Origin: a virus | Strand: one strand, 5' to 3' | IMG/VR virus record: IMGVR_UViG_3300030118_000470 | Location: 1 to 23,683 of that record | Length of the DNA stretch: 23,683 bases | Shown: piece by piece, positions 1 through 18,385 of the stretch | Layout: every line of letters starts with the position of its first letter | Position numbering within the stretch: the first letter of the stretch is position 1 | Program-made: the position numbers and the translations under genes | The notes under the pieces: generated by a model | The model's input: only the letters and a program-made list of their open reading frames with translations | Told to the model about the DNA's origin: nothing | The model's database searches: none

Positions 1-731
1 TCTTTAAACCAATCGTTTATCTTTGTAAAACTTTCACCATGTAACATAGGTATAAAATTACTTTCAGTTACACCTTTAAATCGTAAGTATGGTTTCATAC
101 CATCATATTGACTTGATGATTTACTACTACCATATAAACTTGTTGTTTCAAACAAACATATATTTGTGTTATACTTATCATCTATCAGTTTCTTTATTCT
201 ATGACTACAACATATCGCGGCAAGTAATTTACCACCAAGATAGTTGTAACCAAATGGTTGTGTAGGCACAATAGTGAAACCCATGATTGCGGCATGATTA
301 AATCTTTTCATTTCTACCTTGTCTTGCGTTTTCAATGGTCTACCTAATACTTCGTTTCTAGGTTTACTATTCATCATAGGACTACCAAAACGAATAAACC
401 CTACAATCTTATTTGTGTTTGTTTCTTTTACAATTATTCGTATTGCTTTACCAGGTATACTTGCCATCGCTGTATGACTTGTAACTTTATTTAATATTCT
501 GGTAAATGTATCGTTGTCCATTTCTTGTATATCAAAATTCATATTCTCTGGCAATATGCCAAAGTCATTAAAGAAATCATCTTCATCTGCCATACCAGGT
601 AATTGAAACGGAAAGTCTTTTACTTGTTCTAGTTTTTGTTCTTTGATATATTGGTCTATTCTTTCAAACTGAGCAAAGTAGTTTGTAAAATATAACATCG
701 CCCATTCAGCGTCTTGTTGATTTAATATCAT
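1..731 (-). CDS. DUF4338/DruA-like protein, 3' end cut by window edge
   Basis: An open frame starts at the ATG at 731, overlaps the stop of the Mom-like gene as ATGA, and runs 243 codons to the left edge without a stop, so the C-terminus is missing. Visible landmarks are VGFIRFGSP (about residue 108), then IVPTQPFGYNYLGGKLLAA, and a CLFETTSLYG segment. This order (a strand ending in FG, an I-V-P segment with a helix after it, then LFETT) resembles DUF4338, the family of the Druantia component DruA, and more loosely a GNAT-type core. The same order of elements is seen in the upstream neighbour, so the two may share a fold. The overlap with the polymerase operon suggests expression together with replication. 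The family call is my inference from motif order; a generic GNAT-like phage protein is the alternative. That a gene is here is very likely. Confidence 0.75.
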   Translation of the reverse strand, partial: MILNQQDAEWAMLYFTNYFAQFERIDQYIKEQKLEQVKDFPFQLPGMADEDDFFNDFGILPENMNFDIQEMDNDTFTRILNKVTSHTAMASIPGKAIRIIVKETNTNKIVGFIRFGSPMMNSKPRNEVLGRPLKTQDKVEMKRFNHAAIMGFTIVPTQPFGYNYLGGKLLAAICCSHRIKKLIDDKYNTNICLFETTSLYGSSKSSSQYDGMKPYLRFKGVTESNFIPMLHGESFTKINDWFK

Positions 732-1510
732 GCAAAAAAGTCCTCTAAATTTTGTGTTTGATATCTTGCAACATTACTGTAATTGTATTCTGTTTCTTTT
801 GTTAATGTAAATGGCATTTTAGTAGTGTTAGTATATTTTGTTTCGCCAGGTTTTTTTATTTTCCATTCTAAATCTTTGTCTTTAGGATATTGTTTGTTCC
901 ATTCTATTGTACTATGTTTTAAATATTTTCTCATCTTCTTTGTCATGGGTAGAATATATCTAAACTGTTTACCTTTTACTCTACTTAATTTTAATTCTTT
1001 TAGTTGTTCAGGATTTGGTCTCATACCGTACTTTCTATTTTTAGTGTTTGGTATTCTACCTTGCATTGTTCTAGGGTGTACCTTTTCACCTTTATCTGTA
1101 ACATAAGTATCTGTCCATATAAAACCCCCATATAAAAAATTAAATGCTTGATACACATAACCGGGTTTACCAACAAGACCATCTGCCCAGGTAAATATAT
1201 ATTTTAAATCAGGTTCTTTCTTTCTTAACCAACTCACTGCCGCTGACATCATTTGTGTTTCTGAATTTCTTTTCATGCTTTCGTCCATACACATTTTACC
1301 AATCTCATAATAATCTTTTGTGTCTAACATTGGAAATAATTTCTGTATAGTATGTTTTGGTCTTACACCCCAACCAAAAGTAATCACACCTTTTAAATCA
1401 CTATTAACAAAATAACCACAATAGTATTTTGTTAATCTTGGTAGTAAAGCAGAATAGTGTCTAGTGCTAGTATATTGACCTGCCATGACTTTATCTATTA
1501 ATTTTATCAT
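728..1510 (-). CDS. Mom-like DNA modification protein (GNAT-like fold)
   Basis: This 260-residue protein overlaps gp43 upstream (ATGA) and the next gene downstream (ATGA). Landmarks are HYSALLPR (18-25), LKGVITFGWG (39-48), YEIGKMCMDE (68-77), and a block at about 109-129 with ADGLVGKPG followed by VYQAFNFLYGG. This layout, especially the A-D-G-x-x-G and Y-Q-A-x-N-F/W-x-Y-x-G signature, is that of phage Mom-like proteins; Mu Mom modifies adenine in phage DNA to evade restriction and has an acetyltransferase-like fold. The basic middle (about 150-230) could bind DNA. The last residues, NLEDFFA, nearly match the C-terminus of gp43 (TIEDFFA), which suggests a sliding-clamp-binding tail and modification coupled to replication. 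Family assignment is by motif recognition; the chemistry of the modification cannot be read from sequence. Confidence 0.72.
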   Translation of the reverse strand: MIKLIDKVMAGQYTSTRHYSALLPRLTKYYCGYFVNSDLKGVITFGWGVRPKHTIQKLFPMLDTKDYYEIGKMCMDESMKRNSETQMMSAAVSWLRKKEPDLKYIFTWADGLVGKPGYVYQAFNFLYGGFIWTDTYVTDKGEKVHPRTMQGRIPNTKNRKYGMRPNPEQLKELKLSRVKGKQFRYILPMTKKMRKYLKHSTIEWNKQYPKDKDLEWKIKKPGETKYTNTTKMPFTLTKETEYNYSNVARYQTQNLEDFFA

Positions 1511-3978
1511 GCGAAAAAATCTTCTATTGTGTTACTATCAGAGGCGTCTATATGCCAGTTGATTGCACCTAGAATAAATCGTAATGGTTCCATAAATGAT
1601 TTAGTGAATTGTGTTTCATAATCAATATACCCATGCATATCAAACTCTTTAGGTAATTTAGATATAAAGGTAATACAGTTTGCATTCCATAGATTTTTTC
1701 TTAGGTGAATATATTTACCTTTGTCGCCCTCATAGATAGGTTGAAACTTATGACCAATCTTTTTAATTTTAAGTAGGTGATTATACATCAATGCACCTTT
1801 AACATGCATTGGTGTACCTTTCTTGTATATAGATGTTCTATCACCATATTTCTTCACACCATTTACACTACGAGGAAAAGCAATCTGTTCAGGTGGTAAC
1901 AATTCAAACTCACGCCTAAAGTCAATAATAAATTGTTTCATTTCTTGTTGATCACCACCCATGATAACTTTGAATGCCTCTTTAAGTTTATCTCTACAAG
2001 GTAAAGGGGTAGAAGTTTTTACTGCCTCGATACCCATGATTTTTAATTTAGGTTCTGGGTATTGTACACCTTCAGAATTATGAACATTAAGAATATATCT
2101 TTTCTTTGCCGTCCAGATACCTTTGTCAGCGATAACTTCTCTTTTCATTACCATTTTGTTTTCATAAACATTCATGTAACTACCAAGTTCGTTATAACAC
2201 TTTTCAATATATGGTTCAAACTTTTCTGTACAGAATTGATCTAATGCTTTTACAATTTTTGTTTTATCAGTTGCACCAGTTAACTTTACAAGTGGTGCCA
2301 TATTAACATAGATACTATCTGTATCAGAGGCAATAACATAATCTTTGTTATCTGTTTTATATAACTTGTTAAAATACTCGTTGACTTTTTTATCTATCCA
2401 TCTGATATTCAATTGACCAGATGTAGTGATTGCTTCTGCCTGTCTGTGGTCATAGTATCTAAAATATTTGTTACCAATCGCACCATAGGCACTATTCAAA
2501 GAAATCTTTTTAGAATGTTGTATTAGATAAAATTTTCTTGCCAGTTTTTCATACTTTTTATCTTTTGTGTTGGCATACATTTGTTCTGCCTCTAACATTT
2601 TCTTTTTGTAGATAACACGGTCGTCATATTCTCTTTTAATAATTCTAGGTAACATACCAAGTTTACCTGTCTTATACATTGTGCCATTTGCAGCCATACA
2701 ATTACCATCAGACATATCAATCTTTTTGTCTAGTAGTTCATCTATCAAAACATCTTTACGGTCATCTAGTATTGTTTCTGGTGAGATATTATACTGCATA
2801 ATCAAATGTGGATATAGTGAGTTCAAATCAAACGATACTACCCAATCATGGAAACCAGTAGTAGGTTCTTTTACATATGCACCAACAAGTTCTTTCGATT
2901 GTGGGTTCATATCACGCATTGGCACAATCGTATTTGTTTTTAATAGTTCGTTGTAAATGATAGTGTCCCACATACGAACCTGTGAGAATACATCTTCATA
3001 ATTTACTTTGGCATTGTATGCCATAGTGATTGCAAGTTCTATCAGTTGTAATCTATCTTCTAGTCTATCAACTAATTCAACATCTTGTATATTATAATCT
3101 ATGAATGATTGTATGTCTTGTTGATACCATTCTTTGAAAGTATCATATGGGTTATCGTCTTTTGTTTCACCAAGTTCTACAAAACCAATATGGTCTAGTT
3201 TATAACTCTCTTGGTTTTTGATTGTAAATTTTTGATAGAGTTGTAGGTAATCTAATTGTGCAATACCATGTAATCTAAAATAAGTTTGTGTCTTACCCAT
3301 ATAGTAGGTACTATCTTCCATGACTTGACCCCAAGGCGACATTTTATTCTTTACAGTTTCGCCAAGTATCTTATCAATTCGTCTTACAAGATATGGTATG
3401 TCAAAGTATTTACTATTCCAACCTGTAATGATGTCAGGTGTATATTCTTTCCAGAATTTAATAAACTTAATAAGTAAATCTTTTTCATCAATACATTTTA
3501 TATAATGCACATTGTCTTGTTTAGGTTTATAATCTGCTAAACCCCAAACCAATATTTGTTTTTTAACTTGGTCTTTGATTGTTATACAAATCATTTTTTC
3601 TGCATGGTCTTCTACACTAGGAAAACCATGTTCACTTTCAACCTCAATATCAATAGTGTAAATACGAAGTTTATCTTTATCGTATTCTACTATGCCAGGA
3701 TATTTGTCTGAAATAAATTGATATTGAAATCTATCTGTGCCATAAACAAAGTTTTTATGTTCTTCATATCTTTTAATGGCACTTCTTGCCTCTCTTATTG
3801 TATTATAAGATTTAGGCATAAGACCTTTGCCATCTAAAGAGTTATGGGTACATTGACCTTTGAATGGAAAATATAGACGAGGTTGGTATTTTATTCTTTC
3901 AGAAAATCTTTCACCATTTTCAAAACCTCGTATGTGTAGAAAATCGCCATGTGGCGTAACATTCGTGTAAAATTGCAT
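1507..3978 (-). CDS. 43: DNA polymerase gp43 (family B, T4 type)
   Basis: Replicative DNA polymerase with 3'-5' proofreading exonuclease; 823 residues against 898 in T4. Exonuclease motifs: Exo I TIDIEVE (D110, E112), Exo II GWNSKYFDIPYL (D193), Exo III YNIQDVELVD (D299). Polymerase motifs: A SFDLNSLYP (D384), B around KISLNSAYGAIG (491-502), C ASDTDSIYV (D552, D554). All catalytic residues are present, so the enzyme should be fully active. The C-terminal residues TIEDFFA fit the clamp-binding tail by which T4-type polymerases attach to gp45. It is the first gene of its operon, with a sigma70-like promoter whose -10 lies six bases before the ATG; there is no room for a Shine-Dalgarno sequence. 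Two putative DNA-modification genes follow with overlapping starts. The exact T4 order regA-43 is interrupted only by a small ORF. Confidence 0.99.
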   Translation of the reverse strand: MQFYTNVTPHGDFLHIRGFENGERFSERIKYQPRLYFPFKGQCTHNSLDGKGLMPKSYNTIREARSAIKRYEEHKNFVYGTDRFQYQFISDKYPGIVEYDKDKLRIYTIDIEVESEHGFPSVEDHAEKMICITIKDQVKKQILVWGLADYKPKQDNVHYIKCIDEKDLLIKFIKFWKEYTPDIITGWNSKYFDIPYLVRRIDKILGETVKNKMSPWGQVMEDSTYYMGKTQTYFRLHGIAQLDYLQLYQKFTIKNQESYKLDHIGFVELGETKDDNPYDTFKEWYQQDIQSFIDYNIQDVELVDRLEDRLQLIELAITMAYNAKVNYEDVFSQVRMWDTIIYNELLKTNTIVPMRDMNPQSKELVGAYVKEPTTGFHDWVVSFDLNSLYPHLIMQYNISPETILDDRKDVLIDELLDKKIDMSDGNCMAANGTMYKTGKLGMLPRIIKREYDDRVIYKKKMLEAEQMYANTKDKKYEKLARKFYLIQHSKKISLNSAYGAIGNKYFRYYDHRQAEAITTSGQLNIRWIDKKVNEYFNKLYKTDNKDYVIASDTDSIYVNMAPLVKLTGATDKTKIVKALDQFCTEKFEPYIEKCYNELGSYMNVYENKMVMKREVIADKGIWTAKKRYILNVHNSEGVQYPEPKLKIMGIEAVKTSTPLPCRDKLKEAFKVIMGGDQQEMKQFIIDFRREFELLPPEQIAFPRSVNGVKKYGDRTSIYKKGTPMHVKGALMYNHLLKIKKIGHKFQPIYEGDKGKYIHLRKNLWNANCITFISKLPKEFDMHGYIDYETQFTKSFMEPLRFILGAINWHIDASDSNTIEDFFA

Positions 3979-3984
3979 TATATA

Positions 3985-4012
3985 ATTATATCAGGTTTTC
4001 GTAAAAAGTCAA
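3985..4012 (-). promoter_or_regulatory. Sigma70-like promoter of gp43
   Basis: The minus strand has TTGACT (4012-4007), a 16-base spacer and TATAAT (3990-3985) with the extended -10 form TGATATAAT. The -35 overlaps the TGA stop of the preceding small ORF. Only six bases (TATATA) separate the -10 from the gp43 ATG at 3978, so initiation is predicted at or next to the start codon, giving a leaderless mRNA. The element closely resembles those before the DUF3310-like, glycosyltransferase and gp55 genes, which supports its being real. Confidence 0.85.
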
Positions 4013-4212
4013 GCGTCAAAATATTCTTTTAATACATCTAATTGTTCTTTGTATTTACCAATATGGTTTAATTCTTTTTCAATAGTTTCAACAATGTCTG
4101 AATGTTCGCCTATACCAGTTGTGTTGTTTAGGTAAACATCTACATTGGCTTTGTGTTTGGCAATCTGCCCTTCTGCATGTTGCCTAAGTGCTTGTAGTAG
4201 TTGTACTTTCAT
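4009..4212 (-). CDS. Small hypothetical protein between regA and gp43
   Basis: Sixty-seven residues from the ATG at 4212, which I prefer because GAGGAG (4222-4217) lies four bases upstream; the open frame extends nine codons further to an earlier start that lacks such a site. The gene overlaps the 3' end of regA by 29 bases in another frame and ends inside the -35 of the gp43 promoter. The protein is charged and predicted helical (MKVQLLQALRQHAEGQIAKH at the start), with spaced hydrophobic residues that could form a short coiled coil. There are no catalytic motifs. Its end, VLKEYFDA, loosely resembles the gp55 tail LEYFMA, but this is too weak to call a clamp-binding tail. Function is unknown; the position inside the replication cluster and the good ribosome binding site argue that it is expressed. 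Confidence 0.7.
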   Translation of the reverse strand: MKVQLLQALRQHAEGQIAKHKANVDVYLNNTTGIGEHSDIVETIEKELNHIGKYKEQLDVLKEYFDA

Positions 4213-4624
4213 TTTTCTCCTCACTTGGTTTCTTACCAATATTATATTTTGGTTCTAATATCCATTCATGTTTTTCTTTGAATGGTAAAACTTTTATTTG
4301 TGATAGAGGCGCTGTTGTTGTAACTTCACCAACAAGTTCTATAAGTCCCCAATCACTTAATAACTTACCAATAGTATTTCTTCTTTCAATATCATTGGCA
4401 AAGATATTTGCTGTCTTGCCATCTAAGGCAAATAACTCTTTGAAGTGGACAATAAAATATCTACCTTGTTTATGTAGTATATGACAAGATTGATATATCT
4501 TCCGTTCTTTTCTACTTGCAACACCTATTCGTGTTAGTGTCTCTCTAATTTTTAGGAAATCGTCTGGCTCTTTGATTTTCACCTCGAGCATTTGATCTGG
4601 TTTCCATTCTATAACTTCACTCAT
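4184..4624 (-). CDS. regA: RegA translational repressor of early genes
   Basis: RegA is an RNA-binding protein that blocks translation initiation on T4 early mRNAs, including those of gp44, gp45 and itself. The sequence from residue 12 (MLEVKIKEPDDFLKIRETL) runs in parallel with T4 RegA through YQSCHILHK, YFIVHFKEL, LLSDWGLIEL and KHEWILEPKYNIGK, so the core is complete. T4 RegA has 122 residues; here there is an 11-residue N-terminal addition and a Ser/Thr/Glu-rich C-terminal tail (about 134-146). The start at 4624 overlaps the gp62 stop as ATGA and has AGGTGG upstream; Met12 at 4591 is an alternative start that would restore the T4-like N-terminus. The gene sits in the conserved order 45-44-62-regA, whose mRNAs are its expected targets. 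Confidence 0.97.
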   Translation of the reverse strand: MSEVIEWKPDQMLEVKIKEPDDFLKIRETLTRIGVASRKERKIYQSCHILHKQGRYFIVHFKELFALDGKTANIFANDIERRNTIGKLLSDWGLIELVGEVTTTAPLSQIKVLPFKEKHEWILEPKYNIGKKPSEEKNESTTTTST

Positions 4625-5013
4625 TTTTTCCCACCTTTATATAATCTCTCTTTTATATAATCAATCTGTGATTTGGTAAGAATGTTGAGAGCCTCACTTG
4701 CTTTCTTATTTGAGTAACCATAGTATTGTTTTATAACATCAATATCTTTGATCTTACTCTTTGTTAACCACTTACTAAATCGTTTCTTATTTCTTATAGT
4801 ATTTAGTAGAAACGAAAATTGCATGTGTTTTGAGGCATGATGTAACCTATTCATTTCGTTAGCATACATCACCGTATCAGGAAAGTAAGATAAACCTTTG
4901 TTGATAATGAATGGTGGATATTTCTTTTCCCAATCTTTATCACCACTATCTAGTAGTTTTTCTTTCGACCAGTTGATTGCGGTGAGGTAGTTTGTTAATT
5001 TATACTCACTCAT
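4621..5013 (-). CDS. 62: Clamp loader small subunit gp62
   Basis: One gp62 with four gp44 subunits forms the T4-type clamp loader that opens gp45 and places it on primed DNA. The assignment rests on position, directly after gp44 (ATGA overlap) and before regA (ATGA overlap), and on an N-terminus with LTNYLTAINWSKEKLLD and the downstream FPDTVMYANEMNRLHHAS segment, typical of gp62 in marine T4-like phages. It has 130 residues, shorter than T4 gp62 (187), as in the cyanophage and pelagiphage versions. There is no Walker motif, as expected for the non-ATPase subunit. Start codon use with almost no independent ribosome site suggests translational coupling to gp44, as in T4. Confidence 0.9.
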   Translation of the reverse strand: MSEYKLTNYLTAINWSKEKLLDSGDKDWEKKYPPFIINKGLSYFPDTVMYANEMNRLHHASKHMQFSFLLNTIRNKKRFSKWLTKSKIKDIDVIKQYYGYSNKKASEALNILTKSQIDYIKERLYKGGKK

Positions 5014-5954
5014 TTGAATTTACACTCACCCATTATTTCTGTTAAACATGCCACCATATTTAACTCTGGGTCAGCCACAAACGCATTTTTATATTGATAT
5101 TCTGCCAATAGTATAACCATAGGTGGTATACTTTCTGGTTTCATAGTATTATAAAAGTTTGAATATAAATCTTTGAATAGTCCTGCAGGATCTTGGTCAA
5201 TATTATCTACGACCCACTTTCTCATATCACCAAAGTGTCTATTCTTTAGTGCCTTAGATAATGATTGTAGGTTTGCTTCAGATATTGTTACAAGTATGCC
5301 AGTATCTATTTTACCAGATACAGAATATCTTTGTAACTCGTTTATTGTTCTTCTAAAGTCAGGATAATATTTGATGATTAATTCTGCAACAACCTTGGCG
5401 TCAAAGTCTATGTTCTCTTGTTCAAGTATTGTACATAATCTTTTATGAAATAAACCTGCTAGTTGTTCTTTATCTTTATTCTGTATTACAAAATTTATAA
5501 CAGTACACCTAGAATGAATAGCAGGTATAATTTTATTCTTGTAATTACATGTAAATATAAATCTACAATTATTACTAAATGTTTCGATAAAGTTTCTTAA
5601 TGCAGGTTGCACGGACTCAGCATTCATATAATCTGCCTCGTCAACAATAACAACTTTTGGTTTATCACTTTCGTTTAGTGATACAGTACTGGCAAAATTT
5701 TTGATTTGATTTCTTACAACATCAATTGAACGACCTTCGTCAGAACCATTGATGACCATAACATCACAATCAAGTTCATTACATAGTGCCTTAGCGACAG
5801 TAGTTTTACCTGTACCAGCAGTACCAGATAATAATAAATTTGGTATATCACCTTGATTGAGTATAGACTTAAAAGTCTTTTTAATCTCAACGGGTAATAT
5901 ACACTCGTCAATCGTAGAAGGTCTATACGCTTCTACCCATAATGTGTTGTCCAT
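5010..5954 (-). CDS. 44: Clamp loader ATPase subunit gp44
   Basis: AAA+ ATPase that loads the sliding clamp; 314 residues against 319 in T4. Visible motifs are an N-terminal WVEAYRP box (6-12), Walker A SGTAGTGKTT (43-52), Walker B VVIVDEAD (101-108), sensor 1 FTCN (134-137) and the SRC arginine-finger motif (148-150). The later PDFRRTINELQRYS region is the sensor 2 helix. All ATPase residues are intact. The start has GAGGG seven bases upstream and follows gp45 by two bases; the end overlaps gp62. The order 45-44-62-regA is exactly that of T4. Confidence 0.99.
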   Translation of the reverse strand: MDNTLWVEAYRPSTIDECILPVEIKKTFKSILNQGDIPNLLLSGTAGTGKTTVAKALCNELDCDVMVINGSDEGRSIDVVRNQIKNFASTVSLNESDKPKVVIVDEADYMNAESVQPALRNFIETFSNNCRFIFTCNYKNKIIPAIHSRCTVINFVIQNKDKEQLAGLFHKRLCTILEQENIDFDAKVVAELIIKYYPDFRRTINELQRYSVSGKIDTGILVTISEANLQSLSKALKNRHFGDMRKWVVDNIDQDPAGLFKDLYSNFYNTMKPESIPPMVILLAEYQYKNAFVADPELNMVACLTEIMGECKFK

Positions 5955-5956
5955 AA

Positions 5957-6631
5957 TTATCCCTCATACTTACTTGTATTTTCTAACGCAACCCAATATT
6001 GTAAGGTTTTGTTTTTGTGTCTGAAATTAGAAATAAGTTTTGATGAGATATAAACATTATAATCACCAGGTAACATTTTAAGATGTTCAGTTTTAAAATG
6101 AAAGTCAAACGATTTGTTTGTATCACAAACGCCAACTTTTACACCGTAAGTGTTCGCTGTTTCGTTCTTCTTATCTATCGCGGACATCATTATATCACCA
6201 TCATTTGATTTAACAGATATGTCTGGTAATTGTAACATCGCGGCTGCCTTTTTAACTTTAATTAGGTCTGCCTCAGTAAGTGTAAACTCTACCTCTGTGT
6301 CAGGCATTTTTACATCTTTTTGTGGGGTAGTTAAGATAGAAGCGTCAGCGAAGAAATATTTGGACTTTGTAGAAGTGCCTTCTTCATTGATTGTCATAAA
6401 CTTTTCATCAAAAGTAAATGTTGGTTTACTGAATAAAGACATCATGCCTAAAAATTCAGATAGGTCATATATGGCAATATCTTGCGGAAAGTCTTCTTCG
6501 ACACCTGCCGTTGCCAATATGTTTTTCATTGTAGAGATAGTCTTAATAGTTTTACCTGGTGTGATCATCAAGTTAGGATTGATCTCACTAAAGTTTTTAA
6601 GTATCTCTTTGGTATTATCACTTATTTTCAT
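5957..6631 (-). CDS. 45: Sliding clamp gp45
   Basis: Trimeric ring clamp that tethers the polymerase and, in T4, activates late transcription through gp55 and gp33. It has 224 residues against 228 in T4. N-terminal MKISDNTKEILKNFSEINPN and the following MITPGKTIKTIS, then IAIYDLSEFLGMMSLF, are diagnostic of gp45. An AGGAGA ribosome site lies seven bases before the ATG, and gp44 follows after two bases. This clamp is the presumed partner of the acidic-hydrophobic tails on gp43, gp55, the Mom-like protein and one glycosyltransferase in this window. Confidence 0.97.
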   Translation of the reverse strand: MKISDNTKEILKNFSEINPNLMITPGKTIKTISTMKNILATAGVEEDFPQDIAIYDLSEFLGMMSLFSKPTFTFDEKFMTINEEGTSTKSKYFFADASILTTPQKDVKMPDTEVEFTLTEADLIKVKKAAAMLQLPDISVKSNDGDIMMSAIDKKNETANTYGVKVGVCDTNKSFDFHFKTEHLKMLPGDYNVYISSKLISNFRHKNKTLQYWVALENTSKYEG

Positions 6632-6642
6632 TATATAATCTC

Positions 6643-7020: not shown

Positions 7021-7026
7021 AACATA

Positions 7027-7055
7027 ATTATATCACAGGTTAGTTTAAAAGTCAA
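7027..7055 (-). promoter_or_regulatory. Sigma70-like promoter of the gp45-44-62-regA operon
   Basis: TTGACT (7055-7050), a 17-base spacer and TATAAT (7032-7027) with extended TGATATAAT. The gap to the ATG at 7020 is six bases, so the transcript should start at or beside the start codon. The -35 doubles as the T-rich tail of the hsp20 terminator hairpin immediately upstream. Confidence 0.88.
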
Positions 7056-7073
7056 GCGGGGTTTACACCCCGC
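7056..7073 (-). terminator. Terminator hairpin after hsp20
   Basis: Six-base GC stem GCGGGG/CCCCGC around a six-base loop, ten bases after the hsp20 stop, followed on the minus strand by TTGACTTTT, a moderate T tract. In an AT-rich genome this GC stem stands out. It separates late hsp20 transcription from the replication operon. Confidence 0.75.
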
Positions 7074-7082
7074 CCAAAAAAT

Positions 7083-7508: not shown

Positions 7509-7538
7509 AGTATTACTCCTGTTTAGCAAGTTTAAAAT

Positions 7539-7560
7539 GTATACCCATCATGGCATATAC
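7539..7560 (-). promoter_or_regulatory. Small hairpin in the hsp20 leader
   Basis: GTATA/TATAC arms with an inner CCA/TGG pairing and a TGA loop can form on the minus-strand RNA just after the predicted late start site. It lies about 20 bases before the AGGAG and does not cover it, so any effect would be on stability rather than direct occlusion. Confidence 0.35.
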
Positions 7561-7565
7561 ACTAT

Positions 7566-9573: not shown

Positions 9574-11778
9574 CGCAACCTTGTCAATAAATTTGTTGAG
9601 TAAAACCCTAGAAACACGCTTTGTTTTAAAGTTTTTAAGAAATTGTTGCTTCATTTTAGCGGCACTCATATCAGTTGTAATATCTGCCTCTTCATCTTTT
9701 ACCTGTAATTTAGACTTAGGTAAGATATAGAGTTCATCATAACCAATATTCTTCTTTGTTATAACACCATGTTCTTTCAATTCTTTTCTAGCCTTCATAG
9801 TTTCCTCATAAGAGTTTTGATATGGGTCTTTAGAAAAGTTTGATAGTTCGTTGTATGATAGATTTCTACCACTAGTAACAAAGAAACCAATTAGTTGACT
9901 ACCAGTCTTATGTTTGAAATAATCGAACATAGGTTTGTGGCAACGCATAAATTGGTAACCTCTAATATTATTATTGTAACCAAACTGGTATTGATTGTCT
10001 TGTATTACAATATTACCATTTGGGTGATCTGCCATAAAGTTATTCATGTCTTCATCTTTTTCATATTCATTATTTGCAACCTTAGTAACATTACCACTAG
10101 AATGCCCAACACCGTCAGTTAGAAATATAGTAGTCATTTTTTGTACTCTATATTTTTTCTGAAAGTTGTTTACAATATCAATAGTTTGTAAGATTGCACT
10201 ATCTAATGGAGTACCACCAAGTCTCATAGGATTTGGCATACTGAAATAACTGTCTTCTTCAATATAGTCATCAGTAGGTGTATTGTTCATACCGTATCTA
10301 TTTCTTCTACCATGAAAGTATTTTGTAGTTTGATATAGATAAGTCATTGATTGATTGTAGATAGGAGTTTTTTGTGTTGTATCTACTAATTCCATCATAG
10401 TAACATTTTCCATAATAAGTTGATCTTCTTTATCATAGATGTATGGAGTATGTTTATATCTACCATTACCTAACCAACCAAGATAATCGTCTTCTTTGTT
10501 TTCATCAAAATGTCTTTTACCAATATCAGTAAATGCATAAACTTTACAAGGTATTTGTACTGCCTTACAAAACATAACTAGGTTCATTGTTTGTACTAGG
10601 GTATCATGCATAGCAGTATCCATACTCCCTGACCAATCAACAACTAATATCATACCATGATTTTTTGCACCAGGTGTAATTTCTATTCTTTTGAATATAT
10701 CCTCGTTGTATTTGTAAGTATGTAATTTATTCATGTTTAGCATACCAGTTCTACTTGTTTTAGTTCTACGGTATGCGTCAGCAGATTTTTTCATTTCAAA
10801 CTCTTTAACCATATAGTTAACAGTTCTTAATTGTTGTTGTTTGAATTTTTTGAAGTTTTGATAATATGCGGTATAGTAATTACTATTTCTTTTATTAAAC
10901 AATTCTAATATTCTTTTATTAGGTACAACCGCATTTGTTCTTTTAGGTAAAGTTACATAGATGTTATCTCTATATTCTTTATCTTGTGGCGTCAAAGATT
11001 TTTTCTGTTCTTCTAACGCTTTGTCTGTGATTGCTTCGTTTGTATTTTCTGGGTTGTATCCTGCGTCTTCGTTAGAGGTTTCGCTTTCTCTATTGGGATC
11101 AGTTTCATTCTCGGCAGTAGTTTCCTCAGTTTGCTCTTGTGGCTCATAATCATCACCTAATCTTTCAGATAGTTCAGAACCTGTAACTAATACCTGTTCT
11201 TCTTGGTATTGTTCTTCATCATATTGTTCTTCTTTCGAATAATCAAAAATATCTTGTACTAACTTTTCAACATCAGCCCAAGTATCTAGGTCTTGCGATC
11301 TCTTAATAAAACCTTGTTCGATATCGTTAAAGTCAATATCATTGTAAGTATAACCAGACTTTGTATAAACATTAAGTCTATCAATAAATCTCATTGAGTT
11401 AATATCTTTTTCAGATAGTCTAAAGAAATCTCTTTCAAGTAATTCATTGTAACCATTAAAGTAAGATTTTTTTAGACCAGGATATTTAGATTTCATTTTC
11501 TTATCAATACGAATGTCCTCAACTACATTGTAATAAGAATGTGGTATTTTTTTCTCTTTGATTTTTTGTACATCTTCAACAGGCGTATATAAAGCATGAC
11601 CAACTTCGTGCCCTACTAACATATCGTATAAGTCATTAGACATATCGTCCCAAACTGGTAGACATAATAATCTAGTTTTTGGTACAAAGTATGCCGTCTC
11701 AACTTTTCTGTGTTGAACCGTAATATTTTCTGTGGCAAGTAGTTTTGCCAGATTTGATTTTTGCGTTTGTGTTATCAT
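9571..11778 (-). CDS. VWA-domain protein with N-terminal zinc-peptidase motif (CobT-like partner of CobS)
   Basis: I start at the ATG at 11778 (735 residues) because the frame further upstream runs through the promoter. The N-terminal region has a zincin motif HEVGHALYTP (57-66) followed by YYNVVEDIRID with a glutamate (E87) suited as third zinc ligand. A long acidic, low-complexity linker spans about 183-260. A VWA domain follows with an intact MIDAS start DWSGSMD (381-387), a GGTPLDSA threonine loop and TIFLTDGVG. VWA proteins pair with MoxR/CobS-type ATPases; CobT is the classical partner of CobS, but CobT does not carry an HExxH peptidase, so this is better seen as an ATPase-driven metallopeptidase or chaperone. 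The gene directly precedes cobS and shares its unusual promoter box. The substrate is unknown. Confidence 0.85.
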   Translation of the reverse strand: MITQTQKSNLAKLLATENITVQHRKVETAYFVPKTRLLCLPVWDDMSNDLYDMLVGHEVGHALYTPVEDVQKIKEKKIPHSYYNVVEDIRIDKKMKSKYPGLKKSYFNGYNELLERDFFRLSEKDINSMRFIDRLNVYTKSGYTYNDIDFNDIEQGFIKRSQDLDTWADVEKLVQDIFDYSKEEQYDEEQYQEEQVLVTGSELSERLGDDYEPQEQTEETTAENETDPNRESETSNEDAGYNPENTNEAITDKALEEQKKSLTPQDKEYRDNIYVTLPKRTNAVVPNKRILELFNKRNSNYYTAYYQNFKKFKQQQLRTVNYMVKEFEMKKSADAYRRTKTSRTGMLNMNKLHTYKYNEDIFKRIEITPGAKNHGMILVVDWSGSMDTAMHDTLVQTMNLVMFCKAVQIPCKVYAFTDIGKRHFDENKEDDYLGWLGNGRYKHTPYIYDKEDQLIMENVTMMELVDTTQKTPIYNQSMTYLYQTTKYFHGRRNRYGMNNTPTDDYIEEDSYFSMPNPMRLGGTPLDSAILQTIDIVNNFQKKYRVQKMTTIFLTDGVGHSSGNVTKVANNEYEKDEDMNNFMADHPNGNIVIQDNQYQFGYNNNIRGYQFMRCHKPMFDYFKHKTGSQLIGFFVTSGRNLSYNELSNFSKDPYQNSYEETMKARKELKEHGVITKKNIGYDELYILPKSKLQVKDEEADITTDMSAAKMKQQFLKNFKTKRVSRVLLNKFIDKVA

Positions 11779-11785
11779 GTGGCTT

Positions 11786-11814
11786 ATGCTATACCAATTT
11801 GCCATAAAAGTCAA
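11786..11814 (-). promoter_or_regulatory. Promoter of the VWA-peptidase gene
   Basis: TTGACT (11814-11809), a 17-base spacer and TAGCAT (11791-11786), seven bases before the ATG at 11778, so a leaderless transcript is predicted. The -10 is non-consensus like that of the cobS promoter, and the same 30-base box lies 11 bases upstream of the -35. Confidence 0.65.
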
Positions 11815-11825
11815 TATAATAATTT

Positions 11826-11855
11826 AAATTAAAATCGTTATATTTCAATAACTTA
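11826..11855 (-). promoter_or_regulatory. Upstream box, copy B (before VWA-peptidase promoter)
   Basis: Partner of the box at 9544-9573: 27 of 30 bases agree and the offset of 2282 bases is identical for box and -35. Unlike copy A it lies in non-coding DNA, so coding constraint does not explain its conservation. Confidence 0.7.
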
Positions 11856-11861
11856 ACTAGG

Positions 11862-11877
11862 GTGCGACAAAACGCAC
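11862..11877 (-). terminator. Weak hairpin after the 512-residue glycosyltransferase gene
   Basis: Stem GTGCG/CGCAC with a six-base loop begins four bases after the stop codon. There is no good T tract behind it, so it may be a factor-dependent terminator or mRNA end hairpin rather than a strong intrinsic one. Confidence 0.45.
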
Positions 11878-11880
11878 AGC

Positions 11881-13419
11881 CTAATGTACTGCTTTCCAGT
11901 CAAAATCCGTAACCAATTTCATGCCATATTCGTTATTTTCGTCTGGCAATACCACATCTGGTTTAAGTTTCAACTTGTTTATCTTAAATGGCGTGTAATC
12001 TACAAAGTGGTGCCATCTACCATATTTCCATACCAGACTTGCAACATCTGGGTGCATATCAACTAACATTTGGGATTTGTTGATTGTGCCATCTACATTG
12101 TAACCTGTCTCTTTAAATTCTTTGTTATCTGTATTTTCTGCATGGTAAAATTCTGCCGTGTTACCACCTTTAACAGTTTGTGTTGCAGCCTTACCTTGTA
12201 GAAAGGCATTGAATTGAACGCAACAATCACCATCTTTCATTACTCGTAAACAGATATCAGTATCTTCATTGTATCTACCACGCCATCTATGTTTGGTATC
12301 ATTACGAATTAATAAACAACTGTATATTCTAGTGTTCGATACAAATGGTGGGTAACTACTATCTGGTGCAATAAAGAAACGATATTGTGGACCTGCAATA
12401 TAAATGTTTTCATATCTATCAACAAAATCTTCCATCACTTGAAAACCAACACCACTTTCAAATCGTATTCTTTGATTATTATGTAAACGATAAAAGTCTG
12501 ATATGTTATCATCAAATACCCAATGACTTGTTGCACCAATAGATATAGAATGATCCCATGCCCAGTTTCTTGCACGACCAGGTCCATCACCATGATTAGA
12601 AAATGGTGCCTCTAGTAGAGTTACATATTCTCTTATCTTAAAATTATCTAATGCCTTATCGTAGTCTTGCATGTCTTGTGGTTCTACTACAATGTAATGT
12701 GGTATCTGCATACGGGCAAGTGATCTACTTGTAATCATTGTATCACTACGACCTTTACTTACAATGTAACAAGGGTGTCTAGGGTTAGTTCTCTTTTCTT
12801 GTACCCATCGTAATAATAAATTTTTCGTAATCTCTAGTTTAGGGTGCCAAATAGATTTACTTTTTTCTGTAACTTCTTGTTCTATCTTTTCACCAAACTC
12901 TTTGTAATCTTCTTTTGTTCTAAAGTGTAATAGAAACTTACGATATGGTGCGTTGTCTTCTTGTTTATATTCTGGCATACCTTTCCAATGTTTAGGCCAT
13001 GCGTTGTCTTGTATTTCACTATCTCTTGTTTTGTCTGCTTTTACTTTACCAAAAAATTTTTTGACTTTCTTTGGTTCTAGTTTTCTTCTATCAATCACAA
13101 CTGGTTCATCATCATCTGCCAGAAAACTTGTACCTGCACTTGTAGATTTAAGTGGGTAGTATGTTTCTGATACATCACCAGGTATCATTTGATTAATCTT
13201 TTTACAAAAGTCTTCTAGGTCATCTAGGTTTCTAAATGCCATGTAGATTGTTTTGTATGTATCGTCTTTTTGTTTTATTTCTTTTTGGGTAGTATCAATA
13301 ACAGTACCCACAATAAGATCATCACCTTCAACATGTCTATCCAATGTGGCGATGTATTCGTCATCTTTGACTTGGGTCTTTTCCATAAAGTTATCATATC
13401 TTGCACTTTCTTTTACCAT
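11881..13419 (-). CDS. TET-associated-type glycosyltransferase (TAGT-like) with N-terminal repeats
   Basis: 512 residues. The C-terminal two thirds (from about 210) look like the TAGT/GREB1-type GT-A glycosyltransferases: HPCYIVSKGR (215-224), HYIVVEPQD (241-249), GPGRARNWAWDH (279-290), the nucleotide-sugar/metal motif FDDN (302-305) and NEDTDICLR (384-392). In phages, this family is associated with glycosylation of oxidised or hydroxymethylated DNA bases. The N-terminal part has two related repeats, at 57-89 and 161-193, each reading as hydrophobic strand, F-x-x-x-x-D-x-x-x-F-x-x-x-I and an aromatic-P end (ETYYP, SIWHP); similar repeats occur in phage ParB-like proteins and may bind nucleic acid. 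The start overlaps the preceding glycosyltransferase as TAATG, so the two are translationally coupled. The acceptor and sugar are unknown. Confidence 0.8.
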   Translation of the reverse strand: MVKESARYDNFMEKTQVKDDEYIATLDRHVEGDDLIVGTVIDTTQKEIKQKDDTYKTIYMAFRNLDDLEDFCKKINQMIPGDVSETYYPLKSTSAGTSFLADDDEPVVIDRRKLEPKKVKKFFGKVKADKTRDSEIQDNAWPKHWKGMPEYKQEDNAPYRKFLLHFRTKEDYKEFGEKIEQEVTEKSKSIWHPKLEITKNLLLRWVQEKRTNPRHPCYIVSKGRSDTMITSRSLARMQIPHYIVVEPQDMQDYDKALDNFKIREYVTLLEAPFSNHGDGPGRARNWAWDHSISIGATSHWVFDDNISDFYRLHNNQRIRFESGVGFQVMEDFVDRYENIYIAGPQYRFFIAPDSSYPPFVSNTRIYSCLLIRNDTKHRWRGRYNEDTDICLRVMKDGDCCVQFNAFLQGKAATQTVKGGNTAEFYHAENTDNKEFKETGYNVDGTINKSQMLVDMHPDVASLVWKYGRWHHFVDYTPFKINKLKLKPDVVLPDENNEYGMKLVTDFDWKAVH

Positions 13420-14276
13420 TAAATAAACTCCTCTAAACTATTTGTATTACCTTTCTTATATGCCTTTGACCAAGACACTTTGACTTTACCATAATCTCTG
13501 AAACCACCTTGCACTCTGGTACCGTCTGTATTATATAGGATTTTAAAAAACTCTGGAAATCTTTCTTGTATCTTTTTATGGTCGTTATGTGTTTGTTCAA
13601 ATGTTTGATTATCCCATACTGTACTTGCCATATTCTTTTTTGTAACACTTGTATTTGAAAAACAAAATTCACTTGATACTCTGTTACCATAACCATTTGT
13701 AAGTAATGTTAAAAAGAAGTGTGTATCTTCCATCACTCGTATAGATGTTAAATCCCATTTGTGTAAGTCTTTATAGAAATCTTTACCATTAAACCAAACA
13801 CCAGAACCAAGACTTGAATGATTGACATATGGTTTACCACCAGGTGGATTTTCTACATGACTACAACCACAGAATGATACTTCATCTTCATCTAACCATT
13901 TTTCATATAGTTCAAACATTTCTAATATATCATCTGGCGTACATAATCGTCTGGACTTTTCCATGTTATCTTTGCCACCAAAGTATTTACTGTTTCGTCT
14001 ATGAAAGTTTAAGTCATCATCTAATACCACATACTTACTATTACCTGCTTCATCATATATAAATTTTCTTGTTTTTGGTAAACAATAATATTCTGAATAA
14101 TGATATTCTTTTGTATTTGGTAATACTATAACAGAACCTAGAAAGTTTGGTAGATTGTAGTTACCTAGTTCATGTGCCTGTACAACCAATGTAACTTTTC
14201 TTTGTAATTCTTCTGGTAAATGATTGTAAGTAATCTGGTTGTTGTATCTATGAACAGTTGGTATATAAATTTTCAT
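13419..14276 (-). CDS. Glycosyltransferase-like protein with DDD motif
   Basis: 285 residues, GT-A type by eye: N-terminal strand MKIYIPTVHR, then VTLVVQAHE, a conserved KTRKFIYDEA helix leading to VVLDDDLNFHRR with the DDD motif (86-88), SLGSGVWFNG, and VMEDTHFFLTLLTNG (181-195) in which E183-D184 is placed like the catalytic acidic pair. The layout (P-x-x-x-R start, DDx motif, EDTxxxL) parallels the coupled 512-residue TAGT-like protein, so the two may act on the same substrate. The C-terminus SLEEFI resembles the gp43 and gp55 tails and may bind gp45; T4 alpha-glucosyltransferase is reported to interact with gp45, a precedent. It is the first gene of its operon with a strong promoter seven bases before the ATG. 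Glycosylation of DNA is likely but unproven. Confidence 0.72.
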   Translation of the reverse strand: MKIYIPTVHRYNNQITYNHLPEELQRKVTLVVQAHELGNYNLPNFLGSVIVLPNTKEYHYSEYYCLPKTRKFIYDEAGNSKYVVLDDDLNFHRRNSKYFGGKDNMEKSRRLCTPDDILEMFELYEKWLDEDEVSFCGCSHVENPPGGKPYVNHSSLGSGVWFNGKDFYKDLHKWDLTSIRVMEDTHFFLTLLTNGYGNRVSSEFCFSNTSVTKKNMASTVWDNQTFEQTHNDHKKIQERFPEFFKILYNTDGTRVQGGFRDYGKVKVSWSKAYKKGNTNSLEEFI

Positions 14277-14283
14277 ATTCTAT

Positions 14284-14312
14284 ATTATATCACAAAAAGA
14301 TAAAAAAGTCAA
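14284..14312 (-). promoter_or_regulatory. Sigma70-like promoter of the glycosyltransferase pair
   Basis: TTGACT (14312-14307), a 17-base spacer and TATAAT (14289-14284) with extended TGATATAAT; the ATG follows after seven bases, predicting a leaderless mRNA. It starts two bases after the gp46 stop. Confidence 0.86.
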
Positions 14313-14314
14313 GC

Positions 14315-16021
14315 CTACTCAATAATTTTAGTAAAATTCCCTACTTTTTCAAACTTCATTACATTGGCAAATCTATCTGCTATCATATCTGTTTTGTGTG
14401 ATATGATAAAGACATTCTCACCTTCTAAAGTATTTAGGATTTTCAAAAAGTCATCTGTGCCTGTACCATCTAAACTACTGTCAAATATTTCATCTAGTAG
14501 TAAAAGATTGGTAGATATACTATTCTTCATCTTCGCAATGGCACGCCAAGTAAATAATAGTGCCAGATTTATTCTCATCTTTTCACCCTCACTAAATGAG
14601 GCATAAGAAAACTCGTCACGGAATCTACTTCGTATTGTTTCTTTAAATTCATTATCTAATCTAAAGTTTACAAAGAAATCCATACTTGCAAGATACTTGT
14701 TAATGAGTTGGTTCATTATTGGTAGATATTGTTTTATCACTTTTGTTTTAATACCACTATCATTTAACATTGTTTTTGCCGCGGACAGATAATCTAGTTC
14801 TTCACTCTTACTTAATTTTTTTTCATCAATACTTTTTTGTTGTTCTTCTAATTCTAATAGTTTGCCTCTCGCTTCGCCACTATCACTTGATTGTTGTTTT
14901 AATTCATTTATCTTATGTGTTAATTTTGTGTTAATATTGTGTAACTCTAATTTTGATTGTTCAAACTTGGCCACATCTATTTCTACTGTTCTTATATCTG
15001 CCTCTATACTTTGTATCTTTTCTAATCTTTTACTAATATTTCTTATTTCTTTGTCCGCGTCTTCTAATGCTTGATTCCATTTCATAATAGATTGATTGTT
15101 GTCTCTAATCATATCTTGTTTATTACTTAATACTTGTTTACATGTTGGACAGTTATCATGGTTCTCATAGAAAGATTTGTGTTTGTTACATTCTTTTAAT
15201 TTACTTTCAAACTGTGCCTCAAAGTTTCGTAACTTATTTGATTTGTCAGATAGATTATCTTTGTCTGTAATATCAGATCGTAGTTTAGATATTTCAGATT
15301 GTAAGGCACTAATGTGTGTATTGTATTTGTCTATTGCATTTGTATTACTGGTAACTTTCTCTATCTCACTTTGTACTTCAATATTAGATCGTTCTTGTAA
15401 TTTACCAATATATTCTTTTTGTGTTTCTATCTTAGCATTTGTGATATCAAGTTCTCTTAATATATCTTTGATTTGTTCTTCTTGTTCTTTTATTCGTACT
15501 TTGGCAAGCATTTGCATTACAGAAAATATCTTAATATCTAATATGTCCTCAACGACCTCTCTACGGTGAGAGGACTTTAATTCCATGAAAGGTACGAAGG
15601 TTGAAGACCCTAATATAACAACCTGTGTAAAACTTCTATAATTAAACTTTAGTATTTGTTGTTCTAACATCTTTTGATAATCTGCAATTGTGGCGTCTTG
15701 GTTTATCATTTCACCATTCTGGTAGATTTCAAATATGTTAGGTTTGATACCTCGTCTAATTTTATACTTGTTGTTTGATATACTAAACTCTAGTTCTACC
15801 TCTGTGCCACCTAAATTAATACTATTGACTAATTGTTCTTGTTTGATTTCTCTAAAAGGTTTTTTAAACAAAGCAAAACATAAGGCGTCTAATATAGTAG
15901 ATTTACCTGCACCATTATGACCTACTATAAGTGTAGTAGAGTTTTGGTCTAGTGGTACCTCTATAAATTGATTACCAGAAGATAGAAAGTTTTTCCATCT
16001 TATCTTTTCAAATACTATCAT
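14315..16021 (-). CDS. 46: Recombination nuclease ATPase subunit gp46 (Rad50-like)
   Basis: SMC-type ATPase which with gp47 resects DNA ends for recombination-dependent replication and host DNA breakdown; 568 residues against 560 in T4. Walker A GHNGAGKST (34-42), coiled coils from about 170 to 280 and 300 to 420, zinc hook CPTC (291-294), ABC signature SFSEGE (475-480) and Walker B LLLLDEIFD (507-515) are all present. The start directly abuts the stop of the oxygenase gene. The gene order 55-47-(oxygenase)-46 shows T4 linkage with one insertion. Confidence 0.98.
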   Translation of the reverse strand: MIVFEKIRWKNFLSSGNQFIEVPLDQNSTTLIVGHNGAGKSTILDALCFALFKKPFREIKQEQLVNSINLGGTEVELEFSISNNKYKIRRGIKPNIFEIYQNGEMINQDATIADYQKMLEQQILKFNYRSFTQVVILGSSTFVPFMELKSSHRREVVEDILDIKIFSVMQMLAKVRIKEQEEQIKDILRELDITNAKIETQKEYIGKLQERSNIEVQSEIEKVTSNTNAIDKYNTHISALQSEISKLRSDITDKDNLSDKSNKLRNFEAQFESKLKECNKHKSFYENHDNCPTCKQVLSNKQDMIRDNNQSIMKWNQALEDADKEIRNISKRLEKIQSIEADIRTVEIDVAKFEQSKLELHNINTKLTHKINELKQQSSDSGEARGKLLELEEQQKSIDEKKLSKSEELDYLSAAKTMLNDSGIKTKVIKQYLPIMNQLINKYLASMDFFVNFRLDNEFKETIRSRFRDEFSYASFSEGEKMRINLALLFTWRAIAKMKNSISTNLLLLDEIFDSSLDGTGTDDFLKILNTLEGENVFIISHKTDMIADRFANVMKFEKVGNFTKIIE

Positions 16022-16774
16022 TTACCAATATCTATTAGGGTATTCTTCTTTGTTTGTAAATCGTATGTTGCCTGACACACTTATTCTCACACCTTTTGTT
16101 TTGAATGGATAAACCTCATGGTTTAATTCTGCAGGAAATATCCACATATTACCAACTTCTGGAAAGATAGGGTGTTGCGTCTCTTTCCATTTCTGGTCGC
16201 CTCGTTGACTTAATTCCATACAAAAATTTAGTGTGCCTGGTGGTGTTGAGTTTCCTACAAAGTTTTTGATTTCATCTTCCCACTCTGGGTTTTGACAAAA
16301 TATAACAAATGATAAATCACCACTATGATTATGTGTAGGATTAAACTCACCTGCTTGCATGTAATTAATCCATAAACTTTCTAAACTAAATCTCATAGGA
16401 AAACGAATACTATTACCATCTTTATCTTTTGGTAAGTATTCATGTAAATCAAAATGGTCTTCATGGCTATGTCTGTATGCCATAAATATCTTTGCCATTT
16501 TAGACATGAACCAATCTTTATCATCTGGTGTATAAAAATGTTCTAGGTCTAAATGACCTGCAAGTGCCCTTCTAGCGTCATTCGTTCTATTCTTTTGTGC
16601 CCGGTCGATAAGTTCATTTATAAAGTACATAGGTAGTTTGATACCCATAACAAATGGTCCCCAAACACAACTTTTAAATTTAAAGTGTGATTTTTCACTT
16701 TCTAAATCAACAGGTTCAATCTCTTGTAACCTGCTAATATAACTTGGCACAGTATCTCCAATTTTAGTTCTCAT
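16022..16774 (-). CDS. 2OG-Fe(II) oxygenase superfamily protein
   Basis: 250 residues. The C-terminal half fits the 2OG-FeII_Oxy_5 type of dioxygenases: WINYMQAGEFNPTHNHSGDL with candidate iron ligands H148/H150, VGNMWIFPAELNH with H219, and VRISVSGNI with R230 as the 2-oxoglutarate anchor. Such enzymes hydroxylate proteins or small molecules; related genes are widespread in T4-like cyanophages and pelagiphages with unknown substrate. The gene lies between gp47 (ATGA overlap) and gp46 (abutting), so it is co-translated with the recombination nuclease. It does not look like TET/JBP base oxygenases, so a direct role with the glycosyltransferases in base modification is only a possibility. Confidence 0.83.
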   Translation of the reverse strand: MRTKIGDTVPSYISRLQEIEPVDLESEKSHFKFKSCVWGPFVMGIKLPMYFINELIDRAQKNRTNDARRALAGHLDLEHFYTPDDKDWFMSKMAKIFMAYRHSHEDHFDLHEYLPKDKDGNSIRFPMRFSLESLWINYMQAGEFNPTHNHSGDLSFVIFCQNPEWEDEIKNFVGNSTPPGTLNFCMELSQRGDQKWKETQHPIFPEVGNMWIFPAELNHEVYPFKTKGVRISVSGNIRFTNKEEYPNRYW

Positions 16775-17826
16775 ATTTCAATATCTCCTGCTTCAGTATA
16801 TAAAGATTTCATTAAGACTTTCAATTTATCTTTATCTAAATCTGTTTCTAGTTGTTCAATATAATTATCTAAAAGTGTTGGTGTATCTTCACTTCTTTCC
16901 GCGATATCATCTGCCACAGTAGAAGCGTCTAGGTCAGAAAAGTCTTCAACAACTTTTATATCATTGACGGTCGTTTTGTAGAACCCGTCTAAAAATTTAT
17001 CAAATAAGAAATAATCTTTTTTCTTTTCGACAATCAGTTTTACAAACTTGTCATTGTATTTCGAATGGTCAAAGTTTGAGTAATCGTTTGTTTCATCATT
17101 GTAATATATTTTTTCGTGTATTGTTTCTGGGTTTCGTATATGTTTTATTTCTCTTGTTTCTGTATCTAGTATGTGAAAACCTTTTGGGCAATTGTGATCT
17201 GCCCAGTTAAACTCGTATGGACTACCAAGATAATATATTTGACCATCGTCAGATTTCTTATGAAAGTGGCCAGACAATACTGTTTCAAATCGTCTAAACA
17301 ATTTCTTTTCTAAACCATTTGTTGATATGTGGCCATTGTGCATTTCAAAACCTTTGATTTCTAAATGACCAAGTACCATATCTGCGCTTTCTTGTTCTAA
17401 CATCATAGTTGTTTGTTCTATGTTAGAAGAATTAACCCATGGTAGAAATAAAAATCTCATATCATCTATTGTTGTTGTAATAGGATCTTTATGTATATTA
17501 AACAATAAAGGGTTCAGTAATTCAGTTGGTGAATTTATTTCATTTGTATTCTTATAGTAAGTATCGTGGTTACCTACAATGATATCAACATTACAACCAC
17601 GATTGATTAATGGGTTTACAAACTTATTGTTAAAGTCAGATAGTGTTTTGAAGTTTACAAACTTTCGTCTATCTAACACATCACCAAGATGTATCACATT
17701 CTTTATATGATTAGCCTCTAGGTAAGGAAAAAATATCTCATCATAAAACTTATAAAAGTATTTACTGTAATGAGGGTTATCGTTTCTTGCACCTAGGTGT
17801 GTATCTGCAATTAAAGCAATTTCCAT
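16771..17826 (-). CDS. 47: Recombination nuclease subunit gp47 (Mre11-like)
   Basis: Metallophosphoesterase nuclease, partner of gp46; 351 residues (T4 339). All metal-binding motifs are present: IADTHLG (D8, H10), HLGDVLDRR (D49), VGNHD (N86, H87), GHLEIKG (H154) and SGHFHKK (H187, H189). The acidic C-terminus (from about 295) probably contacts gp46. It follows gp55 after one base and overlaps the oxygenase gene, so the gp55-47-oxygenase-46 group is one operon. Confidence 0.98.
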   Translation of the reverse strand: MEIALIADTHLGARNDNPHYSKYFYKFYDEIFFPYLEANHIKNVIHLGDVLDRRKFVNFKTLSDFNNKFVNPLINRGCNVDIIVGNHDTYYKNTNEINSPTELLNPLLFNIHKDPITTTIDDMRFLFLPWVNSSNIEQTTMMLEQESADMVLGHLEIKGFEMHNGHISTNGLEKKLFRRFETVLSGHFHKKSDDGQIYYLGSPYEFNWADHNCPKGFHILDTETREIKHIRNPETIHEKIYYNDETNDYSNFDHSKYNDKFVKLIVEKKKDYFLFDKFLDGFYKTTVNDIKVVEDFSDLDASTVADDIAERSEDTPTLLDNYIEQLETDLDKDKLKVLMKSLYTEAGDIEI

Positions 17827-17827
17827 A

Positions 17828-18385
17828 TTATGCCATAAAGTATTCTAATTTCTTAGGTTCTTTCTTTTTTCTTTTTGTTGGTTTGTTTTCAACTGGTTTT
17901 GGTTCTTCTTCGTATATCATATTCTTTTTGAGAAAATCTGTATAGGCATTTTGATATTCTGTATTATCACTTTCTTGCCTTACAATCTCATCTAGTCCAC
18001 CCTTCATTATTAATTTTTGTTTTATTGTTGTTTGTTTTTTCTCTTTCTGTATTCTACGAATAAAAGCATAATAAATTATTTGGGTGAAGTAGGCAAAAGG
18101 ATTAGATGACTTTTCAGGGTCAAAGTTGGCGACATACTGTAAACAGTTTTCTATGCCATCACTAATCATATCCTCTTTGTATGTATAGTTTATAAAGTTT
18201 GGTCTATAAGACAAATGGTTTGCAATCTTTAAAAAACATTCACCAATGTAATCACTTATTGGTGGGTCTCGTCTTTTTCTATTTCTTGCACTTACCACTT
18301 TCTTATGGTATTTTTTCATTTCTTCAAGGAACTTTTTATTATCAACATAATGTTCCTTTTTGCGTGTATTTAATTTTACATTCAT
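17828..18385 (-). CDS. 55: Late sigma factor gp55
   Basis: Sigma-like protein that directs host RNA polymerase to TATAAATA late promoters, together with gp33 and the gp45 clamp. It has 185 residues, the same as T4 gp55. Diagnostic stretches are YKEDMISDGIENCLQYVANF, DPEKSSNPFAYFTQIIYYAF and RRIQKEKK, the reduced sigma region 2. The tail is Lys-rich and ends KKLEYFMA, corresponding to the clamp-binding C-terminus of T4 gp55. It is the first gene of its operon, with a promoter eight bases before the ATG and no Shine-Dalgarno. Its target octamers are present upstream of hsp20, the Lsm-like gene and the tail-tube-like gene. Confidence 0.96.
   Translation of the reverse strand: MNVKLNTRKKEHYVDNKKFLEEMKKYHKKVVSARNRKRRDPPISDYIGECFLKIANHLSYRPNFINYTYKEDMISDGIENCLQYVANFDPEKSSNPFAYFTQIIYYAFIRRIQKEKKQTTIKQKLIMKGGLDEIVRQESDNTEYQNAYTDFLKKNMIYEEEPKPVENKPTKRKKKEPKKLEYFMA

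Follow-up and report, generated by a model that had tools for sequence, protein, structure and literature searches.

The window, by which we mean the whole 23,683-nucleotide stretch of DNA analyzed here, is contained in a 26.6-kb viral record (IMG/VR IMGVR_UViG_3300030118_000470) that is kin of Pelagibacter phage HTVC008M, and its source is a marine T4-like phage. Its minus-strand genes include gp43, regA, gp62, gp44, gp45, gp46, gp47, gp55 and uvsW, together with a Mom-like protein and two TET-associated glycosyltransferases, GT285 and GT512. The first 4 nt of the Mom-like gene are shared with the end of gp43, and the GT512 gene overlaps that of GT285 by one base. The sliding clamp is homologous over its full length to gp45 of RB69 (1b77/1b8h) and of T4 (1czd/6drt), with E-values of about 1e-20. 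Also near the glycosyltransferases is a 2OG-Fe(II) oxygenase-like gene (phrog_81, 16022-16774), flanked by gp46 and gp47. The features that matter below are these:

728..1510, minus strand: Mom-like DNA-modification protein, 260 aa (PF25680, E 1.6e-45)
731..751, minus strand: Mom-like tail NLEDFFA (...TQNLEDFFA), candidate gp45-binding motif (profile, conservation, model pLDDT)
1507..3978, minus strand: gp43 DNA polymerase, 823 aa
1510..1530, minus strand: gp43 tail TIEDFFA (...SNTIEDFFA), established clamp-binding type (homology to T4/RB69 gp43, PMC2988020)
4621..5954, minus strand: clamp loader, gp62 and gp44
5957..6631, minus strand: gp45 sliding clamp, 224 aa, proposed binding partner (PF09116, E 3.8e-18)
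11881..13419, minus strand: TAGT GT512, 512 aa, ends FDWKAVH (PF20691, E 7e-43)
13419..14276, minus strand: TAGT GT285, 285 aa (PF20691, E 1e-9)
13422..13439, minus strand: GT285 tail SLEEFI (...TNSLEEFI), candidate gp45-binding motif (profile, conservation)
17828..18385, minus strand: gp55 late sigma factor, 185 aa
17831..17851, minus strand: gp55 tail KLEYFMA (...PKKLEYFMA), established clamp-binding type (homology, PMC2988020, PMC7892883)

Four C-terminal tails in the window

The original prediction held that gp43, the Mom-like protein, gp55 and GT285 close with similar tails, and that most other proteins of the window have no such end. Translation ends confirmed the four tails at these C-termini. 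We built a position matrix trained on the gp43 and gp55 tails only, and took as the null the same score at artificial C-termini placed 8-48 residues inside the same proteins. Out of 27 called window genes, the profile selects exactly four: gp43, gp55, the Mom-like gene and GT285. Expected counts per 27 window genes were 0.001 for Mom, 0.002 for gp43 and gp55, and 0.006 for GT285; the remaining genes all have expected counts above 1, bearing out the second half of the claim. The tails sit at or a few residues from the C-terminus, and are hydrophobic and acidic, patterned like those of the phage's own gp43 and gp55. We inspected the C-terminus of GT512, the neighbor of GT285, and found it without the tail. 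A 76-aa ORF at 4009-4239 (...LKEYFDA) was considered as a fifth client and rejected, because its relatives continue beyond the motif.

It had also been proposed that scanning whole genomes for the terminal motif would reveal clamp clients, and this held up well. As a positive control, T4 gp33, a clamp client known from experiment that lay outside the training set, ranked second among 258 T4 genes (expected count 0.16); apart from gp43, gp55 and gp33, the proteins recovered were nearly all DNA-acting enzymes. An earlier regex scan of ten contigs had given 32 hits against 7.5 expected, and the profile was later used in its place. The wider profile scan covered 19 other genomes or contigs, with hits kept at an expected count below 0.1. 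Besides gp43, gp55 and gp33, it returned Mom, a TET/JBP dioxygenase, methyltransferases, HNH proteins, GT285 and a GT-B glycosyltransferase, along with a 180-aa protein of unknown family that appears nuclease-like by eye and one KVP40 protein related to baseplate gp26. The clamp gene gp45 is carried by the window and by 10 of the 15 larger related contigs, and the Melnitz isolate has gp45, a tailed Mom and a tailed TET.

Baseplate proteins like gp26 end in RGxxDFF or RG[IL]xxFF (L323:6720-7445, L460:15779-16627). As these proteins (RGISDFFS, RGIEDFFV) form one conserved virion family, we set them aside as clients; their ends are likely due to chance or structure. They are a probable false-positive class for motif searches and, since they score, a match to the motif is by itself no proof of a client. 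The clamp tail of gp55 is present in T4, RB49 and pelagiphages and absent from the cyanophage gp55 of S-PM2, Syn9 and P-SSM2 (L403, L438 and L424, respectively), and clamp-activated late transcription may therefore differ in those cyanophages.

Conservation of the Mom and GT285 tails

Close relatives keep the tail in both proteins. Among 80 Mom relatives from IMG/VR (55-100% identity), 78 have a complete C-terminus, and all 78 carry it; for GT285, it is found in 8/8 relatives with 75-99% identity. Across 19 non-redundant Mom tails, Leu is kept in 18, Phe in 18 and the second hydrophobic residue in all 19. Leu and the first Phe have an entropy of 0.30 bits each in this set, as against mostly 2-3 bits for the linker. 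The codons at the conserved positions vary synonymously, showing that selection acts on the protein. None of seven more phage Moms scored for the tail (0/7) has it: those of Mu, Listeria phage A511, Staphylococcus phage Alsa_2, Pseudomonas phage PAN70, Polaribacter phage P12002L, Psychrobacter phage Y8A and Edwardsiella phage ET-ABTNL-9.

We then placed the tail on a predicted structure of the Mom-like protein. A first model, made with 19 close sequences, reached a pLDDT of 54; with 32 sequences (13 added, 10 of them more distant) it reached 88 and matched the crystal structure of Mu Mom (8bv8, Foldseek E 6.5e-13). The RNSET of the window protein aligns with RNSES, the active-site serine region of Mu, so that a hydroxyl is kept opposite position 124 in the 241-aa form of Mu Mom, to which the numbering of the published S124A mutant may not correspond. 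The model is weak mainly at a loop near residue 155 and at the last ten residues, and residues 251-260 are its least ordered block (mean pLDDT 56), predicted to lie outside the confident catalytic fold. This bears on the idea that each enzyme fold simply finishes structurally in the tail, or that the tail is a dimerization or degradation signal, its likeness to gp43 being convergence. Short hydrophobic-acidic ends can serve other roles, and the gp26-like baseplate proteins are indeed structural proteins with a similar end. However, the tail is common to unrelated folds, homologues in phages lacking gp45 do not have it, the Mom model would place it beyond the confident fold, and it follows the dialect of the polymerase tail, as described below. 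We consider such a structural or signaling role highly improbable.

GT285 relatives at 34% identity lack the tail and end QVGKLPI. One of these, in phage G002, resembles at its end the same phage's gp33 (KHAKLPI). Marine T4-like gp33 homologues end in LP[ILV] and not in the T4 clamp motif, and among all genes there are 12 LP[ILV] ends versus 2.2 expected. A second kind of tail, of the LP[ILV] type, may exist in marine T4-like phages (loci L331:10858-11625 and L329:8033-8257, G002).

Tailed families, dialects and possible capture beside gp43

To look for the tail irrespective of protein family, we searched IMG/VR DNA for T-L-E-[DE]-F-F-x-stop, with the same codons in reverse as the control. The motif was found on 83 contigs and the reversed motif on one. 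At all 80 of the 80 loci read, the match closes an ORF that is long or leaves the contig. By homology, 65 of the 80 are gp43. The others comprise four C5 methyltransferases (PF00145), three N4/N6 methyltransferases, one HNH endonuclease, three proteins matching the helical domain of 5-hmdU DNA kinases (PF18723), two short fragments and two unnamed proteins; the kinase-like and C5 groups are near-identical internally and so count as one lineage each. The unnamed TLEDFF-tailed proteins (L220:9408-10655 and L234:10859-11800) are candidates for new DNA-modification enzymes. The contig of L220 also carries gp45, and a comparison of L220 with solved structures gave no significant match; L234 matches part of a long PHROG (17781), as do the 5-hmdU-kinase-like proteins.

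Within families the tail is well kept. It is present in 75 of 77 complete N4/N6 methyltransferase relatives, the other two ending TLEKWLV, and in 16/16 TET/JBP proteins with intact C-termini, mostly as NLESFF or NLENFF; the TET of Melnitz, a cultured phage, ends NLNDFLGE. Further tailed genes include a Dam-like methyltransferase (L126), N4/N6 methyltransferases (L059, L150, L319) and HNH proteins (L155, L066). Across related phages the tail is thus shared by seven or more DNA-modifying enzyme families that are unrelated to one another. Nevertheless, it is optional and not universal among modification enzymes: in many close relatives the C5 methyltransferase directly after gp43 has VLDKL as its end, and the Dam-like methyltransferase L123 is likewise without it. 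The C5 methyltransferase L215 ends TLEDFFI, while relatives 54-56% identical in three Vibrio phages are tail-less.

The form of the tail co-varies with that of the polymerase. The family B polymerase in the record of L473 ends TAEKFFSF, the Mom of L470-L473 ends NVNKFFG, and two methyltransferases beside Mom in L470 end KVNKFFG and KYKFFL, a dialect common to the polymerase, Mom and neighboring methyltransferases. The Mom of L468 and L469 (L468:297-1085, L469:3069-3857) ends QLTLFGD; the QLTLF within it fits QL[S/D]LF, the bacterial consensus for the host beta clamp (PMC3716654). The L468 and L469 contigs yielded no gp45 and no family B polymerase, an absence that weighs little because the contigs are fragments.

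The slot right after gp43, entered through a 4-base overlap, swaps its contents among relatives (window 728-1510; L099-L158). It holds Mom, a C5 methyltransferase, an N4/N6 methyltransferase, a Dam-like methyltransferase, an HNH endonuclease or, in HTVC008M, a DruA-domain protein (PF14236), and has the look of a hot spot where genes for DNA modification and conflict are exchanged. If genes inserted here simply copied the 3' end of gp43, the tails could be functionless remnants of recombination at gene ends. The slot is indeed a site of turnover, and one case fits closely: the Dam-like L126 (6293-6844) extends some 20 residues past the point where its homologues stop and closes NTIEDFFA, and its last 27 nt match the gp43 end of the same contig at 25/27 positions, which suggests capture of the clamp tail, possibly recently. 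On the other hand, the Mom and gp43 tails of the window differ at synonymous sites, tails persist in families away from gp43 (GT285, the Melnitz Mom), and Leu and Phe hold even as the codons and the linker change. That the tails are mere remnants is therefore very unlikely; capture from gp43 may be how tails arise and not why they are retained.

A putative clamp tether and its known counterparts

In T4, gp43, gp55 and gp33 bind gp45 via interchangeable C-terminal motifs (PMC2988020), which dock on a hydrophobic patch on the C-face of the clamp (PMC7892883). Our data are most consistent with a model in which the Mom-like protein and GT285 each carry, as their final six or seven residues, a portable clamp-binding motif of this kind that tethers the enzyme to gp45; we give this reading a probability of roughly 85%. 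Their tails would bind the same gp45 patch as those of gp43, gp55 and gp33. The clamp tail has been joined, apparently independently, to Mom, glycosyltransferases, several DNA methyltransferases and TET/JBP dioxygenases, and likewise to 5-hmdU-kinase-like proteins and HNH nucleases in phages with a gp45-type clamp. The likely purpose would be to keep the enzymes on newly replicated duplex behind the fork. There they could modify daughter strands ahead of attack by host restriction or by nucleases of the phage itself, and the tether might make them prefer phage over host DNA. Because the tail is common to the polymerase and at least seven unrelated modifying families, the Mom-like protein and glycosyltransferase of the window, and their counterparts in related phages, probably ride the replication machinery. 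The sequences themselves show the tails, how they are conserved, their specificity for DNA-acting enzymes and their co-variation with the polymerase tail; from this we infer both the binding of the Mom and GT285 tails to gp45 and their benefit at the fork.

The tails could also bind gp45 and serve mainly some other end, such as restricting the enzymes to phage DNA, tying them to late transcription or competing with gp43 and gp55. This would accord with the same tail on gp55 and the additional role of gp45 in late transcription (PMC2988020), and with tailed HNH nucleases, for which fork-coupled modification is not the point. T4 alpha-glucosyltransferase, the best-known phage modifier bound to the clamp and cited in the original prediction as an analogy, leans the same way. 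Its contact with the clamp stands, in that the enzyme co-purifies with gp45 in a pull-down (PMC13216743, citing Sommer 2004); the likeness of its tail does not, as it ends FKEQFDIITK and so must bind gp45 another way, and it belongs to a glycosyltransferase family other than TAGT. The same source (2026) holds that the share of alpha-glucosylation is set mostly by promoter and Shine-Dalgarno strength and hardly by the gp45 contact. Since that contact is argued to have little effect and the enzyme lacks a gp43-like tail, we can only infer that modification follows the fork here. Against a different main use, tailed families other than the polymerase are mostly base-modifying enzymes, for which new DNA is the natural substrate. 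We judge it doubtful, and prefer tethering near the fork.

A tether of this kind would bear on how a phage gets its full genome modified ahead of host restriction. Should the enzymes ride the clamp, modification would be coupled to replication, and deleting six residues should uncouple the two with the catalytic domain untouched; the cultured Melnitz phages have two tailed enzymes, Mom and TET. The tail may also serve as a search key able to nominate new genes for DNA hypermodification, because the family-blind scan yielded polymerases and mostly DNA-modifying enzymes, some of them of unknown function. The finding thus extends well beyond the window and appears to be a known motif put to new use; searches of the open-licence literature turned up no account of such tails on Mom or phage methyltransferases. 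We lean slightly towards a general rule whereby tailed phages couple hypermodification to the replisome through a portable tag, whose dialect would follow the clamp in use (gp45 of several lineages, or the host beta clamp) and which would by itself reveal new DNA-modification enzymes and other clamp clients.

Several known systems offer comparison. The motifs of T4 gp43, gp55 and gp33 are, like the tails described here, short hydrophobic-acidic C-terminal peptides after a variable linker, although the marine phage form is [ST]LExFF and that of T4 is SLDFLF. The gp45 clients known so far comprise the polymerase, transcription factors and the ligase (PMC7892883), whereas here the motif is found on DNA-modification enzymes. 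Mu Mom has the fold (8bv8) and Pfam family of the window Mom, but in the alignment it stops some 50 residues sooner and is tail-less. Beta-clamp binders with QL[S/D]LF (Pol II, UmuC and others) follow the same principle and resemble the Mom of L468 and L469; they differ in using the host clamp instead of gp45, and none was seen in the window. Finally, Dnmt1, with its PCNA-binding motif, differs in being eukaryotic, in performing maintenance methylation and in its motif and clamp, but it too modifies DNA while held on a sliding clamp, which lets it act on new DNA (PMC9690074).
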